Origin: an uncultured Clostridia bacterium | GTDB lineage: Bacteria > Bacillota > Clostridia > Christensenellales > Borkfalkiaceae | Length of the DNA stretch: 37,111 nt | Direction of reading: 5' to 3' | NCBI GenBank assembly: GCA_944362555.1 | Contig: CALVTL010000017.1 | Location: forward strand, 1-37,111 | Shown here: positions 3,881-30,009 of the stretch, in pieces | Numbering within the stretch: the first letter of the stretch is position 1 | Layout: every line of letters starts with the position of its first letter | Made by a program: the position numbers and the translations under genes | Notes under the pieces: generated by a model | The model's database searches: none | Told to the model about the DNA's origin: nothing | What the model saw: the letters and a program-made list of their open reading frames with translations, nothing else

Positions 3881-3960
3881 ATTGTTAGCTCCTTTTGTAT
3901 GTTTCCGAAATTTGCAGCCCCGTCCATGTGGAAAGAGCATAGAATCACTCTGCGCAGCGT

Positions 3961-13764: not shown

Positions 13765-16700
13765 TCATTGTGCGGAATTGTTTGTGACCGTGATGTCGGA
13801 GAAACTCCAATAGTTGTACGCCGTCCAGAACGTGATGGTGGTGGCCTCGTCGGCGGAACAGGTCGTTTCGCCGATCTTCACCCAATCCGTTCCGTTGAGC
13901 GCATAGGCGGTGATCGCAGTGCCCTTGCGCTCGAATTTGAGCCTGACGCCCGCGCCGTCCTGCTTGGCGAGCGGCGTCATCCATGCAAGCGCCTCCTGCG
14001 CGTCGCCGTCGCTGACCGAAGGAATGATATTGTCCGCCTGCGAGCCGAAAGCAAGCACCGCCGCGCCGCCGTTGGTATCCCAAGGGCCATTGTTCCAGCC
14101 GATCGCAAGTCCGTGATATGTCTCCGCCTCCGCGTTCTCCGCCATCGTAATGCCGAACACGCGCCAGCTTGCACTGTTGGCAAGATCGTTGATCTGCTTC
14201 ACGGTCACTTCAAGCGTCACATCCTTGCTTGCAGCCGTCGCCCCGGAAAGAATGAGCGACGCGCTTGCAGGATATTGAGGCCCCTGCATTCCCACGGTTG
14301 CGCTGCCGAGCGAAACGGAGTAGGAATATCCGTCTCCCTCGCGGACCGCCTGCGGCGAAGTATATTCGGGATAGCGCACGCCCTTGACGAAGTTGGCGTT
14401 GAGCACGAGTTCCACGTTGCCGTTTTCCCCGACCGTCACCGTGCCATCCATATATCCGCTGCAGCTCACAGCATAGCGCCCCGTATAGATGGTCTCGCTT
14501 CCGAGCGACGCCTTGCCGTCCGCATCGACCGTGACCGTATAGCTGGCTGCGGGAGAACCGAGGTATTCCAGCGCGATCTTCGTTCCCGCCAAGGTACGGG
14601 CGCCGTCGAGCCCGTAAGCAGCGACGCTGACCGTACCGACGGCGACCGGCTTGCCCTCTTCCACCTGCTCGTTGTTGGTGACGGTGAAATCGGAGAATTG
14701 CCAGCAGTCATACGCCGACCAGAAACCGAGCTTTGTCATATCGGACGCGCCGCACGTCGTCTTGCCGAGCTGTACCCAGGTTTCCCCGTTCTTTGCAAAG
14801 AGCGTGATGTCCGTACCCTTGCGCTCGATGCGCATACGGACGCCCTCGCCCTTGACGAGCGGCGTCATCCACGAGAGCGCCGCCTGCGCGTCGCCGTCGC
14901 TGACCGAAGGAATGATATTCTGCGCCTGCGAACCGAAGGCAAGCACCGCCGTGCCGCCGTTGTTTGACCATGCCGTATTATTCCAACCGATGGAGAAGCC
15001 TCTGTCCCCCGCCAGCGTGACACCGAACACGCGCCAGCTCGCGCCGTCGCCGAACTCCCAGCTCAACCGCACGGTGAACTCCGCCTCGATGTCCGTGCTT
15101 CCGCGCTCTGCCGCCGAAAGGTCGAGCACCGCCTCGGCGGGATTGGTCGGCGAAAGGCTCGCCTTGCCGCCCACCTCGATGGACTTGACAAAGGTCGCCT
15201 CGCCGTTTACCACCGTCTTTTCCGCGCCCAGAACGATCGCCGAATCGTTGCGCTCCGCCGTTGCGAAGTCCTCGATCAGATAGAGGGTCATATTGCCGTT
15301 CTCATCCAGCGTAGCGAAGTCGGTGACATACCCTTCGCAGGTGACAAAGTAATCGCCGATGAACATCTTGCCGTCCACCGTGAACGTGCCGCCCGCAGCT
15401 ACCTCGGCAGTATACGAACGGTCGATAAAGGCGTCGAACACGAAGGCGATCTGCGTCCCTTCGGGAAGGGCTGCCGCCGCGTTCCCCTGCGCGTCGTATA
15501 CCTTGATCGTGCCGGAAGTGAGCGCGACGGGCGTGTATTCTTCGATCTCGAGTACGATCTCCAGCGTCTCGCCGAAATAGCGGGGCAGGAAGATGGACGT
15601 GCCGTCATCCACGTCGGCAGTCCTGTCCGTTCCGTTGATGGTAAGACTCCTGAATCCGCAGTCCTCGTCCGCCTCGATGGTCAGTTCGACGGGCATCCCG
15701 GGAAGATACTCCTCCTCGTCGAAATACAGCGTGCCGTTTTCGACTTTGATGCTGTCTCCCGAGACCGTCGTTCCGTTGACGCGGACATTTACGGGCGTAG
15801 AAGAGAGCTCCGTGAACGTTGCGCTGATCTCAAGATCCTTCGTCACGTTATTGAGCGTAAACCCGATCGCATAGCCGTCTGCGTCATAGCTGATGGCGTT
15901 CGTGACATCCTCTCCGTTTACATACAGCCCCGTGAGGCGGGAGTCGCCCTCGTTGACGATAAAGCTTGCGGAATGTCCGTCCACCGCATAGCTGTACCCG
16001 TTTGCCTCCCGGACCGTGCCCAGGGAGGAAGAGCTCTCGATGGTCACGGAATGCGTCTTGGCGCCGTTTTCTCCGAACGGGTAGGAATGACTCGGATTTC
16101 CCCATTCGTAGCCGGCAAGTTGATGCTCGCCGAAGCTGAACCAATCGCGCCCTGCAGTGTAATCCATCGTATCGTAATCGAGCGAACTGATGAGCACGGG
16201 GTTGATGTACAGATTTTCGAGCGAGCTGCGCTCCAGCCTGAGATGGTCGGTGAACGCATACGGGATAAAGAACTCCATCGTATAGCCCGTGCAGGTATCC
16301 GAATTGACGGCGCCGTTTTTGGTCTGCACGCCGAGCACGGGCATCTTGTCGTACGTCGTGCTCACGGCGCCGCGCCCGCCGAGCGCCGCACCTTCGCCCA
16401 TCTTGACGGAGAGCGAACCGTCCGAACAGAGGTTGATCTCAAAGGAGCCCCTGTCGTCGATATTCGTGACGCCGTCCACGGCGAGATACAACTCGATGCC
16501 GCTGTTGATATAGATGGACCTGTCGGGATTCACCCAGTTGTGATTGCTCTCGTCGACGTCAAAGACGATATACAACCCCTTTTCGCCGTAAGCGGTCGTC
16601 ATTTTGAGTTCCGCCGTTCCGACGCCCGCCCCCGCGCGTTTTGAAAGCTCGAGCCACGTTCTGCCTGCCTCGTTGTAGATCGCCTCGTCGAGCACGCCGT

Positions 16701-16872
16701 CGATGGTCATCCCCTCGTCGCACTCCGCGCGCGGCGTTACGGGGTTGGTGAAGGTGTACTCGTCGTTGTTGAGCGTGGGTTCCTCCCCCGAGCAGGCGGC
16801 GATGCCCGCCGCACAGGTGCAGAGCATTCCCGCAAGGGCGCCGATCATGATCTTTCTTGTGATATTTTTCAT
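13765..16872 (-). CDS. CBM9-like lipoprotein with two tandem beta-sandwich modules
   Basis: The 1035-residue protein has a lipobox GIAAC (Cys27). Residues about 45-270 resemble a family 9 carbohydrate-binding or DOMON-like domain: TIDGVLDEAIYNEAG, TTAYGEKGLYIVFDV, INSGIELYLAVDG and GYTMEFFIPY. A stretch of Ig-like or bacterial-repeat domains follows, with VNGEDVTNAISYDADGY and VNGTTVSGDSIKVENG. Two copies of a unit of about 295 residues then fill 449-740 and 745-1035. Each has a small prealbumin-like beta domain (GTIKVYDAQG / GTVSVAAYGL) and a LamG-like sandwich with WRVFG, GIGWNN-like and SDGDAQ motifs. No catalytic residues are evident. It is probably a glycan-binding surface protein. The start ATG at 16870-16872 has AAGGGG upstream. 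Confidence 0.8.
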   Translation of the reverse strand: MKNITRKIMIGALAGMLCTCAAGIAACSGEEPTLNNDEYTFTNPVTPRAECDEGMTIDGVLDEAIYNEAGRTWLELSKRAGAGVGTAELKMTTAYGEKGLYIVFDVDESNHNWVNPDRSIYINSGIELYLAVDGVTNIDDRGSFEINLCSDGSLSVKMGEGAALGGRGAVSTTYDKMPVLGVQTKNGAVNSDTCTGYTMEFFIPYAFTDHLRLERSSLENLYINPVLISSLDYDTMDYTAGRDWFSFGEHQLAGYEWGNPSHSYPFGENGAKTHSVTIESSSSLGTVREANGYSYAVDGHSASFIVNEGDSRLTGLYVNGEDVTNAISYDADGYAIGFTLNNVTKDLEISATFTELSSTPVNVRVNGTTVSGDSIKVENGTLYFDEEEYLPGMPVELTIEADEDCGFRSLTINGTDRTADVDDGTSIFLPRYFGETLEIVLEIEEYTPVALTSGTIKVYDAQGNAAAALPEGTQIAFVFDAFIDRSYTAEVAAGGTFTVDGKMFIGDYFVTCEGYVTDFATLDENGNMTLYLIEDFATAERNDSAIVLGAEKTVVNGEATFVKSIEVGGKASLSPTNPAEAVLDLSAAERGSTDIEAEFTVRLSWEFGDGASWRVFGVTLAGDRGFSIGWNNTAWSNNGGTAVLAFGSQAQNIIPSVSDGDAQAALSWMTPLVKGEGVRMRIERKGTDITLFAKNGETWVQLGKTTCGASDMTKLGFWSAYDCWQFSDFTVTNNEQVEEGKPVAVGTVSVAAYGLDGARTLAGTKIALEYLGSPAASYTVTVDADGKASLGSETIYTGRYAVSCSGYMDGTVTVGENGNVELVLNANFVKGVRYPEYTSPQAVREGDGYSYSVSLGSATVGMQGPQYPASASLILSGATAASKDVTLEVTVKQINDLANSASWRVFGITMAENAEAETYHGLAIGWNNGPWDTNGGAAVLAFGSQADNIIPSVSDGDAQEALAWMTPLAKQDGAGVRLKFERKGTAITAYALNGTDWVKIGETTCSADEATTITFWTAYNYWSFSDITVTNNSAQ
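13975..14950 (-). repeat. two-copy 888-bp tandem coding repeat
   Basis: The two C-terminal units of the CBM9 lipoprotein gene are repeated at DNA level. The sequence CGTCGCCGTCGCTGACCGAA recurs at 14001 and 14889, an 888-base (296-codon) period, and sits inside a 31-base exact match. Neighbouring codons also match at many positions. The copies therefore arose by in-frame duplication and remain similar enough to recombine. Confidence 0.8.
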
Positions 16873-16891: not shown

Positions 16892-18769
16892 TTATTTCCC
16901 GAGGATCCTGATCTCGGAGATCCCGACAAGTTCCTGTCCTTCCGGAACGTCGATGGTGACGCGCAGCTTTGTTACGGTGTGCCCGTTGAACGCGGCGTAC
17001 GCGGCGGCTCCGGGCGTGATATAGATGAACGAACCGTCCAGATCGAGCACGCGCGCATACTGCTCGGAATCGAAGGGCACCTCGTCGATGTAGCGGACAT
17101 ACTCCACGCCGTTCTCGTCCTCGCAGATCATCTCGAGCTTGAAGGAGCGAAAGGCGTTTTCAAACATTTTGGAATTGTATACCATCACCGCGCGGACCGT
17201 GCGGGCGCTCTCAAAGGAGAACTCGAAGGAAGTCGTCCCCGTGATCTCCGTCTCCTTCACATACTTGGAAATAAAACTGTACGACGCGTTGCGGTAGATG
17301 GAGAGCAGTCCGTCGTTGAGGAAAGATGCGGAGGAGCCCTCGGCGAGCGAGCCGCTCACGGAGATCTGTGCCTCGTCGGCAATGTTCGTATATTCCACGC
17401 CGGGCGCGCCCTCGAGCGCGGGTTGTTCGGACACGGTAGGTCCGTTGACATACATGACGTCGAGTGCGTTTCCGGTTTCGTCCTCCGTCGTCACCCATGT
17501 CACTTCGTCGATCGCCATATTGCGCGCCGCGGAGGGTGCGGCGGGGTTATTGTGACGGTGGTAGACGATATAGAGCTTGCCGTCCATCGTCACGAAGGAA
17601 TGGTGACCGGGGCCGGAGACGTCCTCGTTGTTGCCGCTGTCGTTGGAGAGGAGGTGTCCGTTTTCCGCCTCGGTGAGTTTGCGGAAGGGACCGAGCGGCG
17701 AATCGGCAACGAGCTGAATGACGGAATAAGGCGCCATATCGAACGACTCGATGGAGAGCGTAAGATAGTACTTTCCGTTGTGCTCGACCATCTCGGGTCC
17801 CTCGTTGCACCCATTGTTGGCGCTCTCATAGGAAACGTGCTCGGCGGCGACGCCGTTGCGCACCTCGTTGATGAAATCCTCGACGGTGTAATACGTCGGA
17901 ACGGCGAGGATGGTGAGCGTATCCCACTTGGGTTTGAGCCAGTTCTCCATCTCCACACCCATCACGCGGTTGGAACTCGTATTGTCCGCCCAAAGAAGGT
18001 ATTTGACCTCGTTCCCCTCCTCGTCCGTTGTGACGAAGGGATGCGGGTCGATGGTGCCGTAATAACCGCCGCGCGACGAAAGACTTGTGGCGATGTCGGC
18101 GTTCTCCTCATGCCACGTTCCGTAGATCGTGGGATCGAAGAATGCGTACTTCGCATAGTAATGCGGGTAGTCCTCGCGGTCGTACGTGTGCACGTTCTCC
18201 TCTCCTACGCTTTCGGGATCGGTGAAATCGAGCATATTGAAGGGCCCCTCGGGGCTGTCGGAGACGGCTGCGTACATCAGATAGTACCCGTCGCCCTGGT
18301 ATTTTCCGTTTGCGGAGGTGTCCGGATCGGGCGATGCGCTGAAATACATGATGTAGCGCTCGTTATCCTCATCGTACACGACCTCGGGTGCCCATACCGA
18401 CGTCCATGTCGCGCGCGAGATCTCGTTGTAGCTCTCGCGGATGTTCAGCGTACCGCCGACGGGCTCCCAATTCATGAGATCTTTGGAGCGCGCCGCATCC
18501 ATGGAGTTCTCGGTGCGGTAAAGGTAATAGTAGCCGCTGCGCGCCGTGTCGTCCAGAACGAAGGGATCGGCGCCGTTCACCTTGTAATCGTTGCGGTAGA
18601 AGAGCTCCTGTTCGTACAAGGGATCTCCGAACTCGTCGTCGGTCTCCCCGTGATAGTGAGGAAGTTCATACCGAGGGAGCGAGGCGTATTCATCGCCGGA
18701 ACACCCGACCGCCCCCGCCACACAGCAGATCGCGAGCACTGCCGATATTGCCAAGTTGATTTTTTTCAT
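16892..18769 (-). CDS. glycoside hydrolase family 43 lipoprotein with discoidin-like domain
   Basis: The 625-residue protein has lipobox AVGC (Cys23). The five-blade propeller of GH43 (alpha-L-arabinofuranosidases, beta-xylosidases, arabinanases) shows the base Asp68 in NGADPFVLDD, WAPEVVYDEDNERYIMYFSA, the pKa-tuning Asp in TIDPHPFVTTDEEG, and the general acid Glu323 in CNEGPEMVEHNGKYYL. From about residue 470 a discoidin/F5-8C-type beta domain (ISVSGSLAEGSSASFLNDG, TSFEFSFESARTVRAVMV, VGISEIRILGK) probably binds sugar. I chose the ATG at 18767-18769, preceded by AGGAG; the frame upstream to 18868 overlaps a stem-loop and lacks a start signal. The gene follows the transporter genes after a strong hairpin. 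Confidence 0.9.
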   Translation of the reverse strand: MKKINLAISAVLAICCVAGAVGCSGDEYASLPRYELPHYHGETDDEFGDPLYEQELFYRNDYKVNGADPFVLDDTARSGYYYLYRTENSMDAARSKDLMNWEPVGGTLNIRESYNEISRATWTSVWAPEVVYDEDNERYIMYFSASPDPDTSANGKYQGDGYYLMYAAVSDSPEGPFNMLDFTDPESVGEENVHTYDREDYPHYYAKYAFFDPTIYGTWHEENADIATSLSSRGGYYGTIDPHPFVTTDEEGNEVKYLLWADNTSSNRVMGVEMENWLKPKWDTLTILAVPTYYTVEDFINEVRNGVAAEHVSYESANNGCNEGPEMVEHNGKYYLTLSIESFDMAPYSVIQLVADSPLGPFRKLTEAENGHLLSNDSGNNEDVSGPGHHSFVTMDGKLYIVYHRHNNPAAPSAARNMAIDEVTWVTTEDETGNALDVMYVNGPTVSEQPALEGAPGVEYTNIADEAQISVSGSLAEGSSASFLNDGLLSIYRNASYSFISKYVKETEITGTTSFEFSFESARTVRAVMVYNSKMFENAFRSFKLEMICEDENGVEYVRYIDEVPFDSEQYARVLDLDGSFIYITPGAAAYAAFNGHTVTKLRVTIDVPEGQELVGISEIRILGK

Positions 18770-18793
18770 TCTTTTCTCCTTAAAATTTTTCTT

Positions 18794-18832
18794 CACGCAA
18801 TTTCTCACGAACCGACGTGAGAAATTGCCGTG
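18794..18832 (-). other. long intergenic stem-loop between permease and GH43 genes
   Basis: CAATTTCTCACG (18798-18809) pairs perfectly with CGTGAGAAATTG (18816-18827) around a 6-base loop. The stem extends by CACG/CGTG on the outside across one bulged base. It sits in the 95-base gap between the permease stop and the GH43 start. No immediate U-run follows on the transcribed strand, so RNA processing or 3' stabilisation fits better than termination. Confidence 0.75.
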
Positions 18833-18864
18833 ATTTTCAGCATAGGCCTGTTTTGCTGCGGCGA

Positions 18865-19809
18865 TCACTCCTTGCCGCCGCCCACTGCGATGCCGTTGAT
18901 GAAGAGTTTCTGCGAGAAACAGTAGATGACGATGAGCGGAAGCATTCCGAGCACCGCGGCGGCACAGTGCACATTCTCCATGCCCGTACCCGTAAACACG
19001 GTGCTGACGCGGCTCAAAAAGAGCTGCAGCGTGATATACTCGTCCTGACCGTTGAGATAGAGCAAGGGGCCCATGTAGCTGTTGTATCCGCCGACGAATC
19101 CGAAGATGAACTGCGCCACGAACGCGGGAACGGCGAGCGGGATCATCATGCGGAAAAAGCAGCCGAACTGACCGAGCCCGTCGATGCGCGCCGCCTCGAA
19201 GATCTGCTTGGGAACACCGTCGAAATACATCCGCAGGAAGAACATTGTCCCCACGCTGCCGAAGAGCCCCGGCACAATGAGCGGAAGCACCGTTCCCGTC
19301 CAGCCGATCATCGAATAGAAGATATACGAGATGATGCCGAATGCGCCGAGCGGGATCATGGAAACAAACACTTCCACGACAAACAGCTTTTCCTTGCCGG
19401 GGAATTCCAGCTTGGAAAAAGAATACGCCGAAAGCCCCGAGACGATCAGCCCCGTCACGAGCGGGATGAGGGTGATCCAGAGCGTGTTGAGAAAGCCGAG
19501 CGCAAACGAGGAAATGCCGTTGCTCCAGGCGTAAGGATCCTGTTCAAAGACGTCGATGTATGGCTGAACGGTAAACTGCGGCCACCAGACAAAGCTCATC
19601 GTCGACGTCAGTTCCCGCTGGGAAGTAAAGGATGTCGCCAGGATGGTGTACATGGGCAGGAACAAAAAAATGCAGTAGATCGCGAGCACCGTATAGCCGA
19701 CGATCTTCCCCACGATACCCTTCTTTTTGCGCTTTGCGGCAAGAGCTGCCGCGGGAGCGGGCGCCCCCGCCCCATCGAACTGCGTCGCCTGCAATGTTTC
19801 AGTTGACAT
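18865..19809 (-). CDS. CUT1 sugar ABC transporter permease (MalG/UgpE-like)
   Basis: The 314-residue inner-membrane protein has six predicted helices after a cytoplasmic, Ala-rich N-terminus. The first helix is in VGYTVLAIYCIFLFLPMYTI. The conserved EAA loop that contacts the transporter ATPase is EAARIDGLGQFGCFFRMMIP. The C-terminus KLFINGIAVGGGKE is typical of MalG-like permeases, which often end in a G-x-x-x-G-A-V-K-G pattern. The gene overlaps the preceding permease by 11 bases. It imports oligosaccharides with the binding protein at 20861-22750. No ATPase gene is in the window. Confidence 0.95.
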   Translation of the reverse strand: MSTETLQATQFDGAGAPAPAAALAAKRKKKGIVGKIVGYTVLAIYCIFLFLPMYTILATSFTSQRELTSTMSFVWWPQFTVQPYIDVFEQDPYAWSNGISSFALGFLNTLWITLIPLVTGLIVSGLSAYSFSKLEFPGKEKLFVVEVFVSMIPLGAFGIISYIFYSMIGWTGTVLPLIVPGLFGSVGTMFFLRMYFDGVPKQIFEAARIDGLGQFGCFFRMMIPLAVPAFVAQFIFGFVGGYNSYMGPLLYLNGQDEYITLQLFLSRVSTVFTGTGMENVHCAAAVLGMLPLIVIYCFSQKLFINGIAVGGGKE

Positions 19810-20836
19810 CTTTCATCCTCCTGTTGCGGATGCGGAACAAGATCATGGAGGCGATGCCCGTGAAGAGGAAGAGCACCCAGCTGATGACGGAAGCGCAGGA
19901 GGCAAACGCGTCCTCCGTGCGCACGACGCTGTCGCCGATCAGCCAATACACGAGCCGCATGAGCGTAAGCCCCATGTTCTCCGGTCCGCCGATGTTATCG
20001 CCCCAGCCCTGCGGCGCGATGAGGGCAGCCATGTCGTAAGTGAGCAGCCCCGCCCCCACGCCCGCAATGAGCAGATAGAACGTCGTGGGCGAAATGGAGG
20101 GCAGCGTGATATAGCGGAATTTCTGCCATTCGTTGGCGCCGTCGAGCGACGCCGCCTCGTAGAGCGTGGGATCGACCGCCGCAAACGCCGCACGGTACAT
20201 GACGATGCCGTAGCCGGGCGCCTGCCAGACGATGGCGAGAATGATGATCCACGGGACCGCCGTCGGCTCGTTGAGCCAGTCGACGTCGGTACCGAAGAGT
20301 GCGTTGATGAGTCCGAAATTTCCGTTGAACACCCACCGCCACATGAGCGAGACTGCAACGCCCGAACAGATATACGGAACAAAGAAGAGTACCATGAACA
20401 CGTTCGAGCCGCGCCACTTTTTGGAAAGCAGCCAGCTGATGCCGATGGCGATGGAAAGCGAGATCAGCTGTGCGCAGGCGATCCAGAACGTGATCCCGAG
20501 AGACTTGTAAAAGTACCCGGAGACGTTGATCGCGAACTCGTTCGGATAATAATTCGGATCGAACACCAGCCAGAAGGCGCGGAAATCGTTCCAGACAAAC
20601 GGGTCAGTCAGATCGTAGATATTGATGTTGAAGAACATCGCTGTGAACGATATGACGAGCGTAAACCCGCTGAATATCACAAATCCGACGAGCGGTAGCA
20701 ACGCGAGAACGAACGCGAATACCGACTGCGGCGTCCATTTGCGCTTTTTTTTCAGATTGCGTCCGCGCGCCGCGGCAGGCTCCCCGACTGCGGGGATGTC
20801 CGCCTCGGCGGCGATCGTTTTTAAGCGGTCTGTCAT
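19799..20836 (-). CDS. CUT1 sugar ABC transporter permease (MalF/UgpA/LplB-like)
   Basis: The 345-residue protein has a 30-residue basic cytoplasmic N-terminus (GRNLKKKRKWTPQ) and then about six helices. The first is VFAFVLALLPLVGFVIFSGF. The EAA loop is YEAASLDGANEWQKFRYITL with the expected Asp-Gly. The periplasmic-side insertion after helix 1 (FNINIYDLTDPFVWNDFRAF) is usual for MalF-type partners. It starts 24 bases after the binding-protein stop codon and overlaps the second permease gene by 11 bases, so the three genes form one transporter unit. Confidence 0.95.
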   Translation of the reverse strand: MTDRLKTIAAEADIPAVGEPAAARGRNLKKKRKWTPQSVFAFVLALLPLVGFVIFSGFTLVISFTAMFFNINIYDLTDPFVWNDFRAFWLVFDPNYYPNEFAINVSGYFYKSLGITFWIACAQLISLSIAIGISWLLSKKWRGSNVFMVLFFVPYICSGVAVSLMWRWVFNGNFGLINALFGTDVDWLNEPTAVPWIIILAIVWQAPGYGIVMYRAAFAAVDPTLYEAASLDGANEWQKFRYITLPSISPTTFYLLIAGVGAGLLTYDMAALIAPQGWGDNIGGPENMGLTLMRLVYWLIGDSVVRTEDAFASCASVISWVLFLFTGIASMILFRIRNRRMKDVN

Positions 20837-20860: not shown

Positions 20861-22750
20861 TTATCTGCCGTAGATACGAAGATTCATGAGCTCGAGCGCG
20901 TTGTTCGCCGCCGTCTTTACCTCATTATAAAACTGCGTAAGTGTCTTGCGCCCATAGCGGACGTCGCTGTTGAAGACGGACGACCAGTTGTTGATCCAGG
21001 TGGACTGATCGAAGTATCCCCAGTCGCCGATGTCCGAATTTCTGGAAGCGAACACCGCCGCCCACACGTTATCGGAGAGTCTGTCCTCCGATTCGAGATA
21101 CTCCGCGCTCATGGCATAAGAGGTCTGGTTGGGGACCATGGTGTTCCCCTGCGCGAGGATCTTCTGCCCTTCGGGACCGACCAGCCAGGAGACGAACTTG
21201 ATGGCTGCGTCGTACTCTTCGGAATCGGAATTGCGCGGGATGGAGACCATATAGTTGCGCGAGCAGCTCACCGCCTCGCCGACGATGGGCGTGCCGTTCC
21301 ATGCCGTTTTCACGTCGCCCGTGTACACCTCGTTGTCGTATTCCTTGCCGATGACTTTGAGGTATTCGTTGGCGAACTTGCCCTCACCCGAGGTGATGCC
21401 ATCCGCATAGTACACTCTGCCGCCCTCAAACTCGCGGTACTGCGCAAGGGGCGCCATGTCCCACTTGCCCGCGAGCGCGCTGCCCGCGTAGCTGTTCCCG
21501 CGCGAGAACGCCTCGTTGATCATGGGGCAGTCGTTGCCCGTCAAAAAGCGCTTGGAACGGTCGTTCGTATCGGGGGAAGCGACGCCGTAGCCATAGTTCC
21601 CGCCGTCCACTTCCGCCGTTTCGGGCGCCATAAGGCTCTGGAACTCGACGATAGCGTCGAGCTGCGAGGGCATGATATAGAGCGAAGGCTCCTCCCCCTG
21701 CGTCAGGCGCGTCTTTTCGCTCGCGTTCTCGTTGATGAACATGGCGTCCTCATAGAAGAGCAGATCGCCCTGCGCATACTCCGTGCCGTTGACGGTGATG
21801 CTGTCGGCGAGCACCAGGAAGTTGTCGGTGTCCTGCGTAATGGTGAGCTCATACTCGCCCGTCTCCTCGTTCCAGCCGATGCAGTCGCCGCCGACCGACC
21901 AGCCGTAGTTGAACCACCACTCGGAGAGATACCCGTACTCATACGCCCTGTAATCCTCCCAGCCGGTCTGGAAGCTCTTTGCAAGGCAATGCAGCTCCTC
22001 CCAGCTCATGGGAATGCGGTTATTGAACACTTTGACGACGTTCTCGCCGTTCTCGTTGAGCGATGCCTTATCGGCAAGGTCGCCCCCGACAAATTCGGGC
22101 ATATACTCCGCATAGCCGTGCGCCTTGAGATTTGTGCCGTGCTCCTGATTGTAGTCCGAAAGCTCCTCTTCCGGAACGGAGATGACGACGATGTCACGCA
22201 GCTCCATGATCTCGGTGTTATAAAAGAGCACCTGCGGGTCGTCACCGATGGGCAGCGCAACGAGATCTGTCCCCGCGCCCGCCGTGAGCCGTCCGTCCTG
22301 ATCGGGCGTGGCGGTGAAACGGAGGCGGTTTGTCATCCCCTCGGGGATCTCCGACCACTTTATGGTGTTTTGGACGTCCGCCGTGAGGTATTCGTCGAGC
22401 GGAAGAAGATAATCGAGTGCGGCGATCTGCTTGAACTGCTCTTCGTGGATAGTGACAACATTATAGCGGCAGTCGCGTGCAAGCAGCGTGGTGAGGTTGG
22501 ACATGGTGCCCGATTCATACTTGGGCACAACGTACACTTCGTCCGTCAGCCCCTGTCCCTTGTTGTATGCGTCGACAAGTTCACGATAAGCCTCGAGGTT
22601 GTAAGTATCGTAGACGACGGCATATTCGATGACGACGGTATCCTCCGACGCTCCGGGAGGGAGCTGAGGCCCGCCGCAGCCCGCCGCAAGGACGGAGACT
22701 GCCGTCATAACGCCGGCGGCACACGCCGCCACTAATTTTTTTCCTTTCAT
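20861..22750 (-). CDS. extracellular sugar-binding lipoprotein of the ABC transporter
   Basis: The 629-residue protein has lipobox LAAGC with Cys25 and is anchored outside the membrane. It is a family 1 extracellular solute-binding protein: VVIEYAVVYDTYNLEAYREL, a DAYNKGQG segment, YDAAIKFVSWLVGPEGQKIL and GNTMVPNQTSYAM near the end are typical closing segments. At 629 residues it is much longer than usual CUT1 binding proteins (about 420-450), with inserts in the middle (for example NGENVVKVFNNRIPMSWEEL to YYADGITSGEGKFANEYLKV). Longer binding proteins of this sort often take larger oligosaccharides; that is inferred. It is followed 24 bases later by the first permease gene. Confidence 0.92.
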   Translation of the reverse strand: MKGKKLVAACAAGVMTAVSVLAAGCGGPQLPPGASEDTVVIEYAVVYDTYNLEAYRELVDAYNKGQGLTDEVYVVPKYESGTMSNLTTLLARDCRYNVVTIHEEQFKQIAALDYLLPLDEYLTADVQNTIKWSEIPEGMTNRLRFTATPDQDGRLTAGAGTDLVALPIGDDPQVLFYNTEIMELRDIVVISVPEEELSDYNQEHGTNLKAHGYAEYMPEFVGGDLADKASLNENGENVVKVFNNRIPMSWEELHCLAKSFQTGWEDYRAYEYGYLSEWWFNYGWSVGGDCIGWNEETGEYELTITQDTDNFLVLADSITVNGTEYAQGDLLFYEDAMFINENASEKTRLTQGEEPSLYIMPSQLDAIVEFQSLMAPETAEVDGGNYGYGVASPDTNDRSKRFLTGNDCPMINEAFSRGNSYAGSALAGKWDMAPLAQYREFEGGRVYYADGITSGEGKFANEYLKVIGKEYDNEVYTGDVKTAWNGTPIVGEAVSCSRNYMVSIPRNSDSEEYDAAIKFVSWLVGPEGQKILAQGNTMVPNQTSYAMSAEYLESEDRLSDNVWAAVFASRNSDIGDWGYFDQSTWINNWSSVFNSDVRYGRKTLTQFYNEVKTAANNALELMNLRIYGR

Positions 22751-22879: not shown

Positions 22880-25867
22880 TCACGCCTCATTCTCTCTTGT
22901 GAGCGCAAACCCGGAGACCTGCCAGGTGTCATAACTGCCGCGGAAGGAAATTTTGCCCGCGTCGTCCTCTTCGCACGACGCCTTGGCGAGTTCAACGAGC
23001 TTGTTTTCCGCATCGTAGCCGTACAGCGTGATCTGCGTTCCCTCTTTGACGATGCGCAGCTTGACACCCGTCTTTACCGCGTCGATCGTGTTGCAGAATG
23101 CGGGAAGATCGATCTGGTCATTGTCACCGTCGAGCGTATCCTGCGCAATCACGCGCACCTTTCCGACTGCATCCGCCGTATCGTTCGTATTGTAGATGAA
23201 CAGGAACCCGACGTTCGCCTCGGTCAGCGTGACGGAGAACCTTCTCCAGCCGCCGCCATCCGCTGTCGTTTCCGTCTGTTTGAGCATGAAGTCGAAAGCG
23301 TAATCGCCGTCGGCGTTCATGTTGAGCGTCGCCTTGGCGGAAGCCGAACCGCTGTCCCCATCGGGGCCCGTCGCTGTGCCGCCCAGGGTGATGGTGCCCG
23401 CCTGCGCGTCGATGACGACCGCTTTGCCGCCGCGGTCCGCCGTGGCGTAGCTGTAATCGAGCGTGACCTCATACTCCTGTGTTTCCCCGGCGACGATCGT
23501 AAATGTTGCCGACGTGAGATAATAGTCGATGGCAGAAGTGACGGTATAGGTGCCGACCTGGAGATTGCCCTCGAGCGCGAGCACGCTGCCCTGGAGCGTG
23601 AACGCAACTTCCTTGCCGTTACGATCGGTCACTTTGAGAAGGTCGGCGGAAAGCGTCCCTTGCCCGGAGAGCTTGACGGTGACCTTGACATTCTCGATGA
23701 GCACGGGGATCTTGACGGGTGCCGTGATCTCCTTGCCCGAGAGATCGTACATGATGCCGCTTGCGTTCGCGAAGTATGCCTCCGTGCCCTCTGTGGTCGC
23801 GGTGGGCGGCACTTCCGCATGGAAGGTGAACCCTTCGGTGAACGTAAATGCGGAGAACTGCCAGGTGTCGTAGCTGCCGCGGAAGGAAAACACGTTCTCC
23901 GCCTCGGCATCGCATTCCGTCTGCGCGAGCTGAACGAGCGTGCCGTCTGCATTGTAGGCATACAGCGTGAGATATTCGTTGGCGCGGACGATGCGGAACT
24001 TCACGCCTGCCTGCAACTGCGCGAGCGTGTTGCAGCAATCGGGAAGCGCGATCTGGTCATCATCGCCGGCGAGCGTATCCTGCGCAATCACGCGCACCTT
24101 TCCGACTTTCGCCGCCGTATCGTCCGTATTGTAGATGAACAGGAACCCGACGTTGGAATCCGTCGTTGTGACGGAGAACCTTCTCCAGCCGCCGCCGTCC
24201 GCTGTCGAATGCGTCTGTTTGAGCATGAAGTCGAAGAACCAGATATCGTCCGTCGCGCCATAGACGGGATTGAGCGTCGCCTTGGAGGGGGCGTTAGGAT
24301 TGGTATTGCTGCCCCCGAGCGTGATCGTCTTTTTCTCGGTATCGACCTGCGTGGCGCTGCCCGTGACGTCGATACGCGCATAGTCAAGCGCGATGGACGC
24401 GGTGTAGTTCTGCGTATTGGCCGGGACGATGGTGAACTTCGCGGGAGCGGAGTAGAACGGAAGAGAGCAGGTGATGGTGTATTCACCCGTGCGCAGATCG
24501 CCTTCGAGCGAGATGACATTGCCCTCGACCGAGAACGCGACCTCCTCTCCCGCGGCGTTCTTGATGGTGAGGTCGTCCTCGGTGAAAGTTCCGCCCTCTC
24601 CGAGCGTGAGCGTGATCTTTACATTCTCGATGAGCACGGGGATCTTGACGGGCGCCGCGATCTCCTTGCCCGAGAGATCGTAATAATTTCCTTCCGCGTC
24701 CGTGAAGTATGCCTCCGTGCCCTCCGTCGTGGCGGTGGGAGGCACTTCCGCCGCATACTCAAGGTCGGTGACCTCCATGGCGGAGAGCTGCCAGGTGTCG
24801 TAGCTGCCGCGGAAGGAGAACACATTCTCCGCTTCGGCGGCGCACACCGTCTGCGCGATCTGCACATAGCTGCCGTCGGAGTTCACCGCATACAGCGTGA
24901 TCTGCGTACCTGCTTTGATGACGCGCATCCTGACACCCGTCTTTACCGCGTCGACCGTGTTGCAGCAATCGGGAAGCGCGATCTGGTCATTGTCGCCGTC
25001 GAGCGTATCCTGCGCGATCACGCGCACCTTTCCGACTGCCGCCGCCGTTTCGTTCGTATTATAGATCAACATAAAGCCGACATTGGAATCGGTGAGGGTG
25101 ACGGAGAACCTTCTCCAGCCGCCGCCGTTCGCTGTCGTTTCCGTCTGTTTGAGCGTGAAGTCGAAGAAATAGGATCCGGACGAAGGCGTCTCCTCCGCGA
25201 TGAGCGTCGCCTTGGCGGACGCGCCCCCGTCTACATCGGGAGCGGTGTTGGAGCCGCCGAGCGTGATGGTCTTGTTTACATGGTCGATCGCAGCGCCGCT
25301 GCCGCCGCGATCGAGCGACGCATAGAGGTAGTTGAGCACGATGCCGCTTGTCCCGCCGATGACGGAATCCTTCCCCTCCTGCACGGCAAACTCCGAGGTA
25401 TAGCTCTCGTACCCCTCTTTGGCGACCGTGAGCTTATAGTATTTCCCGACAACGGCATCAGAGAGGGTGAACTTGCCCGTTGTCTCGTCGTAGGCGACCT
25501 TCACATCGTCGTCGTTTACGGAGACGGTGACGCCACGATAGTCGGTGACCGCCTCGCCGTATTTTTTGAGCTGCACCTGTCCGGACGCCGTTCCGTAGAC
25601 GATCTCGGGCGCGGGTTCCTCCTGTCCGCATTCACACTCGCCGTCGATATAGACGTGCTGCCCGCGGCTGGATTCATCGATCGCGCCGTCGTCGGGACAG
25701 ACCTTCCAGTGCTCGTCCTCATCCTTCCCCCACTGCGTGTAGGCGTGCTGATGCTCCGGTGTGGGCGGAGGCGTCTCTCCGCCGTCGGTACATCCTGCGA
25801 ACACGCCCGACATCAGACCGCACGTCAATGCAAGCGCCGCAAAAGGGATCAGTCTTCTCTTTTTCAT
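22880..25867 (-). CDS. modular lipoprotein with three tandem beta-sandwich units
   Basis: The 995-residue protein has lipobox FAGC (Cys26). Residues about 36-85 form a Cys/His module (HQHAYTQWGKDEDEHWKVC, then GECECGQEE). A carboxypeptidase-regulatory-like domain follows at about 90-175 (GQVQLKKYGEAVTDYRGVTV). Three similar units begin at about 180, 492 and 804, each with LGGSNT or a similar turn, GGGWRRFSVTLTDSNVG, IYNT, KVRVIAQDTLDGDNDQI and SFRGSYDTWQ. Linkers between units carry TEAYF, YDLSGKEI and IPVLIENVK. No catalytic residues are obvious. It is probably a non-catalytic glycan-binding protein at the cell surface. It lies between the GH31 lipoprotein and the transporter genes. Its unit resembles that of the CBM9 lipoprotein near DTWQFS. 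Confidence 0.75.
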   Translation of the reverse strand: MKKRRLIPFAALALTCGLMSGVFAGCTDGGETPPPTPEHQHAYTQWGKDEDEHWKVCPDDGAIDESSRGQHVYIDGECECGQEEPAPEIVYGTASGQVQLKKYGEAVTDYRGVTVSVNDDDVKVAYDETTGKFTLSDAVVGKYYKLTVAKEGYESYTSEFAVQEGKDSVIGGTSGIVLNYLYASLDRGGSGAAIDHVNKTITLGGSNTAPDVDGGASAKATLIAEETPSSGSYFFDFTLKQTETTANGGGWRRFSVTLTDSNVGFMLIYNTNETAAAVGKVRVIAQDTLDGDNDQIALPDCCNTVDAVKTGVRMRVIKAGTQITLYAVNSDGSYVQIAQTVCAAEAENVFSFRGSYDTWQLSAMEVTDLEYAAEVPPTATTEGTEAYFTDAEGNYYDLSGKEIAAPVKIPVLIENVKITLTLGEGGTFTEDDLTIKNAAGEEVAFSVEGNVISLEGDLRTGEYTITCSLPFYSAPAKFTIVPANTQNYTASIALDYARIDVTGSATQVDTEKKTITLGGSNTNPNAPSKATLNPVYGATDDIWFFDFMLKQTHSTADGGGWRRFSVTTTDSNVGFLFIYNTDDTAAKVGKVRVIAQDTLAGDDDQIALPDCCNTLAQLQAGVKFRIVRANEYLTLYAYNADGTLVQLAQTECDAEAENVFSFRGSYDTWQFSAFTFTEGFTFHAEVPPTATTEGTEAYFANASGIMYDLSGKEITAPVKIPVLIENVKVTVKLSGQGTLSADLLKVTDRNGKEVAFTLQGSVLALEGNLQVGTYTVTSAIDYYLTSATFTIVAGETQEYEVTLDYSYATADRGGKAVVIDAQAGTITLGGTATGPDGDSGSASAKATLNMNADGDYAFDFMLKQTETTADGGGWRRFSVTLTEANVGFLFIYNTNDTADAVGKVRVIAQDTLDGDNDQIDLPAFCNTIDAVKTGVKLRIVKEGTQITLYGYDAENKLVELAKASCEEDDAGKISFRGSYDTWQVSGFALTRENEA
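22905..25330 (-). repeat. three-copy 930-939 bp tandem coding repeat
   Basis: CCAGGTGTC with its surrounding GCCGCGGAAGGA recurs at 22922, 23861 and 24791, giving periods of 939 and 930 bases (313 and 310 codons). The blocks around GCGCGATCTGGTCAT and AACCTTCTCCAGCCGCCGCC are nearly identical between copies. The last unit lacks the trailing linker. Similarity at DNA level suggests recent duplication or ongoing gene conversion. Confidence 0.85.
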
Positions 25868-25919
25868 ACTCTGTTTTCCTCCTTATGATTTCAAAAGCTC
25901 TTGCTTTTTCATCCGTTCG

Positions 25920-28900
25920 TTATTGCTGCGATGTCTGCCGCGCATAACAGCCGTACAGCATGATCGCCGCGTTGTTCTTCAACATCGTTCCCGCGGGATA
26001 GGAAGTGCTGTCCTGCTTGGACGTGGCGACGGCAGCAAAGGTCACATACAGCGTTCCGTCGGCGCTCTCGGGGCAAGAGATGACGACCTTTTGCGTCCAC
26101 TCGTCGTCGATGTTCCCGAACGTGACCGTCTGCACATTGCCCGCGCGGTCGCGCACCGTCACCTTTGCCGTAGAGAGATTTCCTCCCAGGATGAGCGCAT
26201 ATTCCGCCCCCTCCCCGACGGTATCGATCTCAAAGGTGAAGTACTGCATCGTGTAGATGGCACCGTGGCTCTCCGCCGCCCCGCCGTAGGTGTACGACTT
26301 TTTGACGGAGCCGGAAACCGAGCCGATCGACACGTCGGAGCCGCCGAACGAATTAGAGCCACCCGCCGGGCTCGCTTCCGGATAGCTGAACACGTCCCCC
26401 TCCGAGAGCGCGCCCGTGCCGCCGTTGTCGCCGTAAGTCACCCAGCCGATGTTGCCGCTTGCGGAAAGATCGACTTCGGACACCTCGCCCCCCTTGGAGA
26501 GCGTGAAGGGCGTTTCGGAATCGTCGTACGCCTCATTGCGCGCGGAGCTGGACATACTGCCGAAATACAGTTCGATCTCATACGTCTTGCGCACCGAACC
26601 GCTGAACGAGAACACACTGACATCCCCGTCCGCCGCCGCGCCGCTGTATGCGAACGGCTCCGCCGAGCGATCCTGCACAAACCGCTCCACTTCCTCCGCA
26701 GAGAGCGCTTCACCGTTGACTTTCACCTGCGTCAGCGCTCCCCAGCCGGGATTTTTATGCACGCGGAGATTCCATGTCCGCTCTTCAAAGGCAAGGTCCC
26801 CGTCAAAATTGCGCTCCGCCGCGCCGATCTCCACCACGACCGCCTTCTTTTCGCCATCGTACGCCATGGAAATATCCGTCGTGCGGTACAGCCCGTCCTG
26901 ATAGGCGACCGTCTTGGTGTCGTCCTCATAGAGGCGGGTTTGAGCGTCATAATTGATGGAGGGATATACGTCCAGCGTCAGTTCGCTCCAATCGTACTGC
27001 GAGGTATTCTTCCCGTTGCGCGCAAGGGCGACGAGCGCGCCCTCCCGCACAAAGACGGGCGAGGTATCGATGCCGTGCGTCACCGTACAGGTGTAAGGCC
27101 CCGTGAAGCGCTCCCCCGTCCATACGTCGATCCACGTTCCGTCCGGGATGAACACCGTGCGCGACGCCTCGTTCCCCACTGCCTCCGCGATGGGCGCAAC
27201 GAGGATATTGTCGCCGAGGAGATACTCGTCGTTGCGCGCCGCCTCCACATACTGCGGGTAGGCAATATCCACCCGCCGCATGATGGGAAGCCCTGTATCA
27301 TAGTTCTGCCGCGCCAGATCGTAATAGAGCGGCAGCAGGCGATAGCGCATATCCTGATAGGTCTTGAACACCTCCTCCGCCTTGTCGCCGAACAACCAGG
27401 GCATCCGCCCCGGTTCAGTATTCGTGCAGTGTACGCGGCTGATGGAGGAGAGCATCCCGTATTGGATCCAGCGGATATACTCCTTCTCCGAAAGAGACTC
27501 GACGTGTCCGCCCAGGTCGGAGGACATATACGGGATACCGATCTCTGCGCCGCCGCGGATGGCTATGGCGATTTCCTGCGCAAGGTCGCGCATCCTGCTT
27601 CTGATGTCACCCGTCCACTGGATGGAATAGCGGTGTGCCGAGAGATCGGAGGCATACCGCAATTCGCCGTTCATGACGCCGTCCACGTTCCCCATGATGA
27701 CGGCACGCTGCGCATATTCTCGGATGTCGGCAATGCTGTTATAGTAGTCCTCCGTGATCCAGTGATAGGCGTACATTCCGAACGCATAGACGGAGATCTC
27801 CGGATCGCAGGACCGAAGCGCGACCGACCAATTCCGGTCGTACCACCAATAATCGACGCCGAGAGAGAGCAGGAGGGTGAGGTGCTCGCTCCTGTATTCG
27901 ACCTCTTCGCCCTCCAGCCCGTTGAGCGTGCCATCCACCGGCTGCGGATGGTCGTTGAAGCAGATCTCCACACCCAGCTCCTCACAATCCTCCAAAAACT
28001 GCGCCATGTCGGGGAAGAGATCGGTGTTGATGTCATATCCCCAGCCACCCGAACTGTCCCGCCAGTCGGTATCGATGACGAGCACGTCGATCGCATACCC
28101 GCGGTCGAGGTAGTCCTTGATCTGCTTCAAGGCCGTCTCCGACGTATAGGCATAGTAACGGGAATCCCAATATCCGAGCGTGGAGAGATTGACCATCTCC
28201 GTCCTGCCCGTGAGGTTCACATAGTCGGCGCAGAACTGCGTATAGCTCCCCTGCGGGAGAAACACAAAGACGTCCGTCGCCTCGCTCATAAAGCTCCAGC
28301 CCTGCAATTCCTCCTCCGTCGTCGGGCTGTACCCTTCGTACGAGGGGATGATGCGGGGCGAATCGGTAAAATACCAGCTCGTGAGCGCATCCGACGGGCT
28401 GGGAAGATAGACATTTGTGTCCGTTCTGCCCGTGTACGCCCAGAGCTCGTTGCCGTCTGCGTCCAGAATAAAGGCATCCTCGGCGTCGCCCCCGTCCGGC
28501 ACCACGACGGTGTAATTTTCCGTGACGACCTTCGTCGCGCCACCCTCTTCAACGACCTCCCCTTCCGTCCCCGCCCATGCAAGGCGGTTGGTGACGATCC
28601 AGCTCTCCCTGTTCTCGAACATCCCGTTTTCCGTTCTGTCCTCGATTCGGACGAGGGTATCGGAGAGGAGCTGAACGCGCACGTCCCCGATCTCGTAACT
28701 CCCTTCAAAGGGCGTCGTCGTAACGGGCTTACGCGTGTGCTCGGGCGTTCTTTCGTACCCGCACACGGTGCACACGCCGTCCTTCATGGCGTGCAGCCCC
28801 ATGTCGCCGACCTCATCCGCATGACCGCACGTCGACGCGCGCCAGTGATAGTAGGCGTCCTGCGACCAATCGGAGGAATAGGTGTGCGTGTGCTGCGTTT

Positions 28901-29009
28901 CGGACTGTTCGGGCGGATCCTGCTGCCCGGTGCAGCCCGCAAGAAGACTCCCCCCGAACAGCACCGCGCCAAAAATCGCAGCCGATCTTTTCAAATGCTG
29001 TTTCACCAC
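25920..29009 (-). CDS. glycoside hydrolase family 31 lipoprotein
   Basis: The 1029-residue lipoprotein has lipobox LLAGC (Cys26). A Cys/His module follows at about 37-90 (QHTHTYSSDWSQDAYYHW, CGHADEVGD, GVCTVCGYE). The GH31 barrel has VLVIDTDWRDSSGGWGYDIN, likely nucleophile Asp391 in WWYDRNW and likely acid/base Asp468 in RYSIQWTGDI, plus SSDLGGHVESLSEKEYIRW. A DUF5110-like domain (TLDVYPSINYDAQTRLYEDD) follows. Residues about 850-1029 form an extra beta-rich domain (LSASGNIGWVTYGDNGG) that I do not recognise. Secreted GH31 would cut terminal alpha-linked sugars at the cell surface. It starts 40 bases after the repressor gene with a strong AAGGAGG site, so it is co-transcribed with it. Confidence 0.9.
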   Translation of the reverse strand: MVKQHLKRSAAIFGAVLFGGSLLAGCTGQQDPPEQSETQHTHTYSSDWSQDAYYHWRASTCGHADEVGDMGLHAMKDGVCTVCGYERTPEHTRKPVTTTPFEGSYEIGDVRVQLLSDTLVRIEDRTENGMFENRESWIVTNRLAWAGTEGEVVEEGGATKVVTENYTVVVPDGGDAEDAFILDADGNELWAYTGRTDTNVYLPSPSDALTSWYFTDSPRIIPSYEGYSPTTEEELQGWSFMSEATDVFVFLPQGSYTQFCADYVNLTGRTEMVNLSTLGYWDSRYYAYTSETALKQIKDYLDRGYAIDVLVIDTDWRDSSGGWGYDINTDLFPDMAQFLEDCEELGVEICFNDHPQPVDGTLNGLEGEEVEYRSEHLTLLLSLGVDYWWYDRNWSVALRSCDPEISVYAFGMYAYHWITEDYYNSIADIREYAQRAVIMGNVDGVMNGELRYASDLSAHRYSIQWTGDIRSRMRDLAQEIAIAIRGGAEIGIPYMSSDLGGHVESLSEKEYIRWIQYGMLSSISRVHCTNTEPGRMPWLFGDKAEEVFKTYQDMRYRLLPLYYDLARQNYDTGLPIMRRVDIAYPQYVEAARNDEYLLGDNILVAPIAEAVGNEASRTVFIPDGTWIDVWTGERFTGPYTCTVTHGIDTSPVFVREGALVALARNGKNTSQYDWSELTLDVYPSINYDAQTRLYEDDTKTVAYQDGLYRTTDISMAYDGEKKAVVVEIGAAERNFDGDLAFEERTWNLRVHKNPGWGALTQVKVNGEALSAEEVERFVQDRSAEPFAYSGAAADGDVSVFSFSGSVRKTYEIELYFGSMSSSARNEAYDDSETPFTLSKGGEVSEVDLSASGNIGWVTYGDNGGTGALSEGDVFSYPEASPAGGSNSFGGSDVSIGSVSGSVKKSYTYGGAAESHGAIYTMQYFTFEIDTVGEGAEYALILGGNLSTAKVTVRDRAGNVQTVTFGNIDDEWTQKVVISCPESADGTLYVTFAAVATSKQDSTSYPAGTMLKNNAAIMLYGCYARQTSQQ

Positions 29010-29049
29010 AATTCATCCTCCTTATCGTTTGATTTTTACCGTCTGCGCT

Positions 29050-30009
29050 TTATTTGCTGATCTCGACGGGGAAAATTTCGCGGACGATCTTCCCGTCGTA
29101 CTTTTCGATCTTCCGGATGAGGAGCTGCGCGCTCCGCCTCCCGATAGCGCTCAACCTGCCGCCCACGCTCTTCACTTTGCGGCAATACGGCAGATACTCC
29201 GAAAAACGGTCCACTCCGTAAATTTCGCCGTAAAAGTTCTTTACCGATTCCATGCTTTCCTGCACGCTCGCCGCGATCTCATCGTTGAAACAGAAGATAA
29301 AGTCGTTCCCGTTCTCCTGCACGCTCTTTTTGATCTTCTCCAGCGACTGCTCGCGGGTATAGTAGTTGAAGGAATACACGTTGCAGGACAGTCCGCCCGT
29401 TTTGAGCGCGGCGATAAATCCCTCCTTCCTGTCCTCGCTGATCGCATTTTTGCCGTACGCGACATAACAGGGGCGCTTGGCACCGCAGGCGATCGCCTCC
29501 TGCGCCACCAGTCTGGAACACTGATAGGCATCCGAATAGATGGCACTCACCCGCTCGGAACGCGGCTTGAGCCCGCACAAAAAGAGCGGGATCCGGTTCT
29601 GTTCGCAGTAGTCGATCGCCTCGTCCGTCACATCGAGAAAGGAAAGGATGCCGCACGCGCCGTTCTGGATGCAGGAAATGATGTCCGGAACATCCAGCAC
29701 CGTGCGCACAACGGAGACGAGCGGACGATAGCCCTTTTCTCCCATGTAATCGGTGCAGTGATCCATACAGATGGCGAAAAAGGGATTGGTAAGCGAATTG
29801 ACGACGACCGCGACGATGTTGGAGCGCTTGGAACGCAAAAAACCTGCAATGCGGTTCGGGACATACCCCATCTCCATTGCAGTCTGCTTTACCTTTTCTT
29901 TCATCGCGGAGCTGATGTCCGAGCAGTCGCGCAGCGCGCGGCTGACCGTATTTTTCGAAGTTCCGACCCTCTCCGCAATATCGTCTAATGTGACCACCTT
30001 CTTCTCCAT
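29050..30009 (-). CDS. LacI family transcriptional regulator
   Basis: The 319-residue protein has an N-terminal LacI helix-turn-helix: VTLDDIAERVGTSKNTVSRA, with hinge helix VPNRIAGFLRSK. A periplasmic-binding-protein-like effector domain follows: SNIVAVVVNSLTNPFFAICM, NGACGILSFLDVTDEAIDY, GAKRPCYVAYG and the DEIAASVQESM segment. Such proteins repress sugar operons and release DNA on binding a sugar. It is the first gene of the surface operon, so it is probably autoregulated, with palindromes upstream as candidate operators. The C-terminal region (GGRLSAIGRRSAQLLIRKIE) is typical of the family. The inducer is unknown. Confidence 0.93.
   Translation of the reverse strand: MEKKVVTLDDIAERVGTSKNTVSRALRDCSDISSAMKEKVKQTAMEMGYVPNRIAGFLRSKRSNIVAVVVNSLTNPFFAICMDHCTDYMGEKGYRPLVSVVRTVLDVPDIISCIQNGACGILSFLDVTDEAIDYCEQNRIPLFLCGLKPRSERVSAIYSDAYQCSRLVAQEAIACGAKRPCYVAYGKNAISEDRKEGFIAALKTGGLSCNVYSFNYYTREQSLEKIKKSVQENGNDFIFCFNDEIAASVQESMESVKNFYGEIYGVDRFSEYLPYCRKVKSVGGRLSAIGRRSAQLLIRKIEKYDGKIVREIFPVEISK

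Follow-up and report, generated by a model that had tools for sequence, protein, structure and literature searches.

Which part might a large, repetitive lipoprotein play among the sugar-import and glycoside hydrolase (GH) genes of a clostridial genome? We followed this question in a contig of 37,111 nucleotides (CALVTL010000017.1 of assembly GCA_944362555.1; hereafter the window, at its full length) from an uncultured Clostridia bacterium of the family Borkfalkiaceae. A preliminary description, which gave no strand, had reported a 995-residue lipoprotein between a GH31 lipoprotein gene and a sugar-binding protein gene and had proposed that it captures glycans for the transporter. A frame of 995 codons with an N-terminal signal and a lipobox cysteine (Cys26), here named REP, indeed lies at 22880–25867 on the minus strand, between the GH31 lipoprotein gene (25920–29009) and the gene of an extracellular solute-binding protein (SBP; 20861–22750). 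All genes and domains of the window given below are on the same strand.

We consider REP, with a probability of about two in three, to be a non-catalytic, lipid-anchored and multivalent protein that captures glycans for a Gram-positive polysaccharide utilisation locus (gpPUL). The computations found repeated units and a lipobox in REP, a predicted concanavalin A-like (ConA-like) fold for the unit, no nearly invariant acidic residue in it, and a gene cluster that recurs in relatives. It is the cluster and the fold, rather than the exact place of REP, that carry the argument, so its odds are unaffected by corrections of positions and counts. Three ConA-like sandwiches on beta-rich spacers would project from the membrane; they would retain a poly- or oligosaccharide there and gain from multivalency. 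The co-anchored GH31 and GH43 enzymes would trim the glycan so held, and the trimmed products would go to the neighbouring binding protein and the ABC importer. We infer the glycan binding, the ligand, the hand-over, the co-expression of REP with its neighbours and its exposure at the surface, the last in part from the lipobox.

Repeat structure of REP

The preliminary description spoke of three near-identical units of 310 residues. The threefold repeat is borne out, but "near-identical" was too strong a term: BLASTP alignments of unit against unit give 50–62% amino acid identity (E from 5e-83 to 5e-115), and the core domains share 56–62% among themselves. Repeats are also found at the DNA level, where a stretch of 275 nt recurs at 81 and 88% identity and one of 136 nt at 71 and 79%, and together with the BLASTP values they place the repetition beyond chance. 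Three motifs occur three times each, starting at residues 248, 558 and 871 (GGGWRRFSV), 280, 590 and 903 (KVRVIAQD), and 351, 661 and 974 (SFRGSYDTWQ), with spacings of 310 and 313 residues. The first motif had been given in the longer form GGGWRRFSVTL, which is exact in two of the three units only, unit 2 having GGGWRRFSVTT.

The C-terminal part of each unit is a domain of about 190 residues, located at 24752–25345 in unit 1 (residues 174–372), at 23819–24406 in unit 2 (residues 488–683; the one modelled) and at 22883–23473 in unit 3 (residues 799–995). At the front of units 2 and 3 stands a linker of the EVPPTATTEGTEAYF type together with a beta-rich piece (24407–24751, probably Ig-like, and 23474–23818), while unit 1 opens with a different piece (25355–25603) of weak, below cut-off similarity to CarboxypepD_reg/PEGA. 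The signal peptide (25790–25867) ends at Cys26, a call made by matching what we take to be the lipobox pattern. The unit is moreover not confined to REP, an addition to the earlier picture: two more copies (14665–15291 and 13768–14421) follow a CBM9-like head (carbohydrate-binding module; 16060–16785) in a second lipoprotein of 1035 residues at 13765–16872, here named Q.

Just past the lipobox, REP has a short stretch containing His, Cys and Trp (25604–25750). REP residues 3–88 can be aligned with the beginning of the GH31 lipoprotein (32.6% identity, E = 3e-7), and the His/Trp/Cys stretch is common to both proteins; in relatives, CTEAGxxAYxxCxxCGK-type repeats occupy the same place. A surface spacer or a metal-binding module is possible for this stretch.

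Predicted fold of the unit

Two AlphaFold2 models were obtained, one of the domain only (10 sequences; pLDDT 79.3, pTM 0.81) and one of spacer plus domain (8 sequences; pLDDT 74.8, pTM 0.67). Foldseek against PDB at E ≤ 0.001 returned 250 matches for the former and 183 for the latter, with similar lists. Among the 50 matches listed of the 250, the best E-value is 1.5e-6, the TM-score to the query ranges from 0.38 to 0.61 with 6–16% identity, and the highest TM-score (0.61) belongs to 3mep_A, which we take to be of the DUF1349 type. The matches listed include the endo-levanase BT1760, a GH43 xylosidase, GH32 enzymes, legume lectins, ERGIC-53, GH131, 3mep and sialidases, which presumably carry a ConA-like jelly roll, as well as botulinum neurotoxins (9–15% identity), where the similarity is one of fold only. 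The unit domain is thus predicted to be a ConA-like (lectin/glucanase) beta-sandwich, a jelly roll of two antiparallel sheets; it would have the fold of 3mep, the GH32 and GH43 enzymes and legume lectins, although at the identities listed sequence homology with them is undetectable.

Such a predicted fold is compatible with sugar binding. It is no proof of it, because enzymes whose ConA-like part is possibly structural stand in the same match list. The preliminary description had named the fold of a single unit as a check on binding, with a non-binding structural domain as the adverse outcome; a lectin/glucanase-type sandwich was found, but GH32 and GH43 enzymes with a possibly structural ConA-like part matched as well, so the check came out less than clean.

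Family searches and conserved positions

Scans of REP against Pfam and NCBIfam gave nothing above cut-off (the NCBIfam scan took in five proteins of the locus; Q likewise had no match above cut-off in it). For conservation we used an alignment of 51 units, from which six of 57 had been left out as near-duplicates judged by eye; one fragment of 79 residues had been dropped before counting. Scanned singly against Pfam, the 51 units show scattered weak matches, including PFU in five (best E = 0.024) and Laminin_G_3 in one (E = 0.037), and DUF1349 matches Q at E = 0.077, below cut-off. No curated ConA-like family in Pfam (Laminin_G_3, DUF1349 and similar) is matched by the unit above cut-off. Two whole-protein matches to relatives exceed the Pfam cut-off, PFU on the protein of locus L046 and DUF1416 on that of L053; since neither includes a stretch that is significant by itself, we regard both as chance. 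In a sequence search of PDB, a 5-row unit profile and the REP protein found no match, and the 51-row profile found two non-significant ones. A scan of viral contigs found no relative. Among the 51 units, the nearly invariant columns are R61, G72, G119 and R126 only. In a set of 10 close units, three aromatic residues are invariant, which in REP are W561, Y666 and W669.

Recurrence of the gene cluster

The unit occurs in 17 of 398 genomes of the same family, where the first profile had picked up 15, and, sampled more widely, in 3 of 396 of the order and 2 of 391 of the class, the second of these two being marginal at E = 8e-6; all counts include the genome studied here. In this genome, nine units are divided among three proteins: REP has three, Q two, and a lipoprotein of 1406 residues on another contig four; near the last lie GDSL-type genes and a reading frame resembling GH43. 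In relatives, one to five copies are found per protein, and unit proteins reach 2005 residues (2113 with an iterated profile). As a control of the profile on the fetched loci, 35 of 1511 open reading frames (ORFs) match, as against none of the 1511 reversed ORFs. After removal of two second gene copies, a plausible lipobox is found at the start of 26 of the 33 matching ORFs; another lipobox match, inside a fragment at a contig end, was discounted.

To what extent does the unit travel with import genes? Among 15 loci of relatives picked for a unit match (L042/L043 is the same record as L010/L011 and was not counted twice), 13 also have an SBP, permease or GH43 homolog on the fetched stretch, and the two others sit on contigs of 6,443 and 3,980 bases. 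Starting out from GH43 is less prone to bias. For this we used the 15 related GH43 loci that ranked highest in a search of 103 genomes of the genus (E ≤ 4.4e-100), the window itself excluded. A unit lies within the cluster at E ≤ 1e-6 in 9 of these 15, the stricter count, and in 14 of 15 with the iterated profile, which was partly built from loci it counts (four of the five added loci are in-sample, whereas G150:C37, best E = 2.4e-9, is not). Among the 14, G144:C415 is truncated at a contig end. The fifteenth locus, G138:C13, has a lipoprotein of 1301 residues with three repeats picked by eye. When profiles are compared, these match the repeats of G140 (probability 97.9, E = 6e-13); the G140 repeats in turn match the unit profile at an HMM E of 2.1e-4 before their inclusion and 1.7e-10 after it, with a weak hhalign match (probability 63.7, E = 9e-6); compared directly with the unit profile, the G138 repeats give no match (probability 2.4). 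Of the next seven GH43 loci by rank, three have a weak unit (G190, G200 and G159, in the last of which the protein lies away from GH43), three have a lipoprotein without it (see below), and in one, G170, the contig ends too early.

Binding, scaffolding, adhesion or catalysis

Several results weigh against a glycan-capturing role. No Pfam CBM family is matched in the scan of REP or in those of the 51 units, in line with the earlier remark that the unit was not recognised as a named carbohydrate-binding family, and the four nearly invariant residues may be structural rather than ligand-contacting. The TM-scores of the fold matches are moderate, and the top ones include GH32 and GH43 enzymes, whose ConA-like parts are not all binders. 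The CBM9_1 match on the head of Q has E = 0.037 and 14.3 bits against a cut-off of 23.4; it is the sole match for that stretch, and only one of eight aligned heads is matched. Among the weaker GH43 loci, C7 of the same genome, G156:C23 and G138:C1 carry a CBM9-headed or REP-headed lipoprotein with no detectable unit; by sequence, the more distant GH43 loci retain such a lipoprotein but no recognisable unit. In most relatives, finally, the unit protein follows the SBP, the permeases, GH43 and a gene of the CBM9-like type; in the window, Q and not REP occupies this position. A REP-like place directly before the SBP is also found in G163, in G162:C44 and in C27, a second G156 locus. The placement of REP, on which the capture role had originally been based, is seen in few relatives, although the fold and the cluster linkage have moved the evidence towards this role, and REP can be assigned to the family of cluster proteins in spite of its unusual place.

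The main rival to glycan capture is a structural spacer or scaffold, in which the sandwiches extend or hold the GH31 and GH43 enzymes by protein contacts without binding glycan. The enzymes with ConA-like parts among the top fold matches and the structural look of the conserved columns agree with such a role, and Ig-like spacers have been proposed for DUF1735 lipoproteins of Bacteroidota polysaccharide utilisation loci (PULs) in the part of PMC11216935 considered here. We nevertheless regard it as unlikely: in units 2 and 3 the ConA-like domain already has a spacer-like piece next to it, in Q it is joined to a CBM9-like head, and the copy number varies among relatives. The size and repetitiveness of these surface lipoproteins would also suit an adhesin whose main task is to attach the cell to host mucus, to food particles or to other cells, and not to capture nutrients. 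We give this explanation a smaller chance still in view of the frequent linkage to sugar-importer genes and GH43 (13 of 15 loci).

Least probable of all is an enzyme, the sandwich being a lyase or hydrolase that has diverged within the ConA-like superfamily. This fold is common to the GH131 glucanase and to VvEG16, an enzyme with a catalytic nucleophile, and smaller alignments of 5 and 8 rows do contain one invariant Asp, which qualifies the earlier statement that no catalytic residues are visible. That Asp is not so conserved in the larger sets: no Asp or Glu is nearly invariant among the 51 units and none is invariant among 10 close units, and the unit is thus unlikely to be an enzyme. Further, the Pfam families of the GH16-, PL7- or DUF1080-like enzymes, which we take to be the candidates, are unmatched, no enzyme family is among the Pfam matches of six further unit proteins, and tandem copies would be unusual for an enzyme.

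Beyond glycan capture by REP itself, we tentatively propose, at somewhat less than even odds, that the unit is the first of a new carbohydrate-binding family and that gpPULs have, in the large repeat lipoproteins, proteins dedicated to binding glycans at the surface. These lipoproteins would be kept in an SBP-permease-permease-GH43-CBM9 cluster of this clostridial family, in which Q fills the usual place and REP is an added copy before the SBP, with the sequence and copy number of the sandwiches turning over quickly.

Comparison with known systems

The likeness to SusE/SusF drawn in the preliminary description holds for the role only. Like these and other surface glycan-binding proteins (SGBPs) of Bacteroidota PULs, REP appears as a lipid-anchored, apparently non-catalytic surface protein with Ig-like spacers and beta-sandwiches, in a glycan locus with an importer. 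No sequence relation was found, however: no SusE/F family is among the Pfam matches and no SusE/F structure among the 50 fold matches listed, and REP comes from Clostridia and has an ABC importer rather than SusC/D as its partner. Lipoproteins with an Ig spacer and Laminin_G_3 are described at the SusE/F position in Bacteroidota, and DUF1735 is reported as exclusive to that phylum, in the consulted part of PMC11216935. The DUF1735 and Laminin_G_3 lipoproteins share with REP the combination of an Ig-like spacer and a ConA-like domain in a PUL lipoprotein, but REP has tandem units and no DUF1735 match, and the Laminin_G_3 similarity is confined to the single unit mentioned above.

Multi-domain binding proteins are already known in Clostridia, one example being Sas20 of Ruminococcus bromii, in the portion of PMC9112005 used here. 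Sas20 resembles REP as a multi-domain surface protein of a gut member of the Clostridia that binds glycans, as REP would, but is starch-specific, works in amylosome complexes and has two different domains. The gpPULs of PMC5320581 and PMC10318527, in the sections considered, bring together a regulator, glycoside hydrolases and an ABC importer as the REP locus does; for polysaccharide binding at the surface these papers point to enzyme-borne CBMs, whereas the REP locus offers a separate, recurring, multi-unit candidate. The same sections state that the Roseburia group has no close homologs of Sus proteins (PMC5320581) and that a gpPUL of Blautia producta lacks an SGBP, a role often taken over by enzyme-borne CBMs (PMC10318527). 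Among the matches listed in the open-access literature searched, by titles and the beginnings of abstracts, no published description of a REP-type protein was found. A recurring, separate, multi-unit glycan-binding lipoprotein, if true, would alter the picture of gpPULs for one clostridial family, and the unit, a compact domain with no family name, is directly testable on glycan arrays.

Evolution of the repeat units

Are the three units of REP recent copies? Orthologous units across two genomes share 71–80% protein identity, as against the 56–62% within a genome. Since orthologs are closer than paralogs, the units predate the split of the two genomes, and a recent triplication was rejected. 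The exception is a central block (alignment columns 62–145), in which similarity is higher among the window's own units than between orthologs. In the window genome, none of 1000 column shuffles reaches the observed score, either at third positions or at all positions, and in the relative 56 and 17 of 1000 do so, respectively, under the assumption that columns are independent. These results suggest that the central block of the window's units (22883–25345) has been homogenised by local gene conversion.

Compared with the locus L010/L011 (L042/L043), REP (76%) and Q (78%) are more diverged than the SBP (87%), the permeases (92%) and GH43 (90%). GH78 (73–74%), LacI (77%) and an HAD protein (79%) are about as diverged as REP and Q, so the divergence is not special to the repeat proteins.

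The locus around REP

The genes follow one another on a single strand in the order LacI-family regulator (29050–30009), GH31 lipoprotein, REP, SBP (Pfam SBP_bac_8), ABC permease A (19799–20836), ABC permease B (18865–19809), GH43 lipoprotein (16892–18868), Q and a GDSL hydrolase, with GH78, GH3 and a second GH31 further along. Pfam identifies the regulator, the two GH lipoproteins, the SBP and the permeases; by sequence, the closest solved structures are the GH31 alpha-xylosidase 7wj9 and the GH43 structure 4qqs, respectively, for the two GH lipoproteins. No terminator-like site on the minus strand was found in the gaps flanking REP on both sides, and scans of the window against Rfam and for tRNA gave no match. 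The locus is likely to be an operon. The regulator (LacI) and the carbohydrate transport (ABC importer) that mark a gpPUL in PMC5320581 and PMC10318527 are both present by Pfam match; as for a polysaccharide-degrading enzyme, GH31 and GH43 genes are there, whose products may degrade a polysaccharide. The mixture of GH families suggests a plant heteropolysaccharide as the substrate.

The CBM9-like head, fused to the units in Q, is a separate neighbouring gene in many relatives and carries a long tail in others. A profile of these heads has no significant match in PDB. The fusion links the unit with the head, and binding by the head itself would be a further step that we infer. In the relative L010, an extra gene for a CBM9-like and GDSL lipoprotein (3539–5407) stands between GH31 and REP, where the window has none.

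Lipoproteins of about 320 residues lie near unit proteins in four loci (L046, 471–1436; L050, 11837–12814; L052, 6536–7513; L009, 1399–2370), show weak, sub-threshold matches to the unit (E = 0.015–0.11) and are possibly its single-domain cousins. In L009 (G000:C36), one ORF at 6697–10110 runs, as judged by eye, from the N-terminus of an AraC-like regulator through a GH43 fragment into a CBM9-like/SGNH lipoprotein, and looks as if it had arisen by deletion or assembly error. The long plus-strand ORFs opposite these genes of the window (25761–29060 and 23660–25888, for instance) were set aside, as the minus-strand genes opposite have relatives or match known families; such very long antisense ORFs opposite well-supported genes are most likely a by-product of codon usage.

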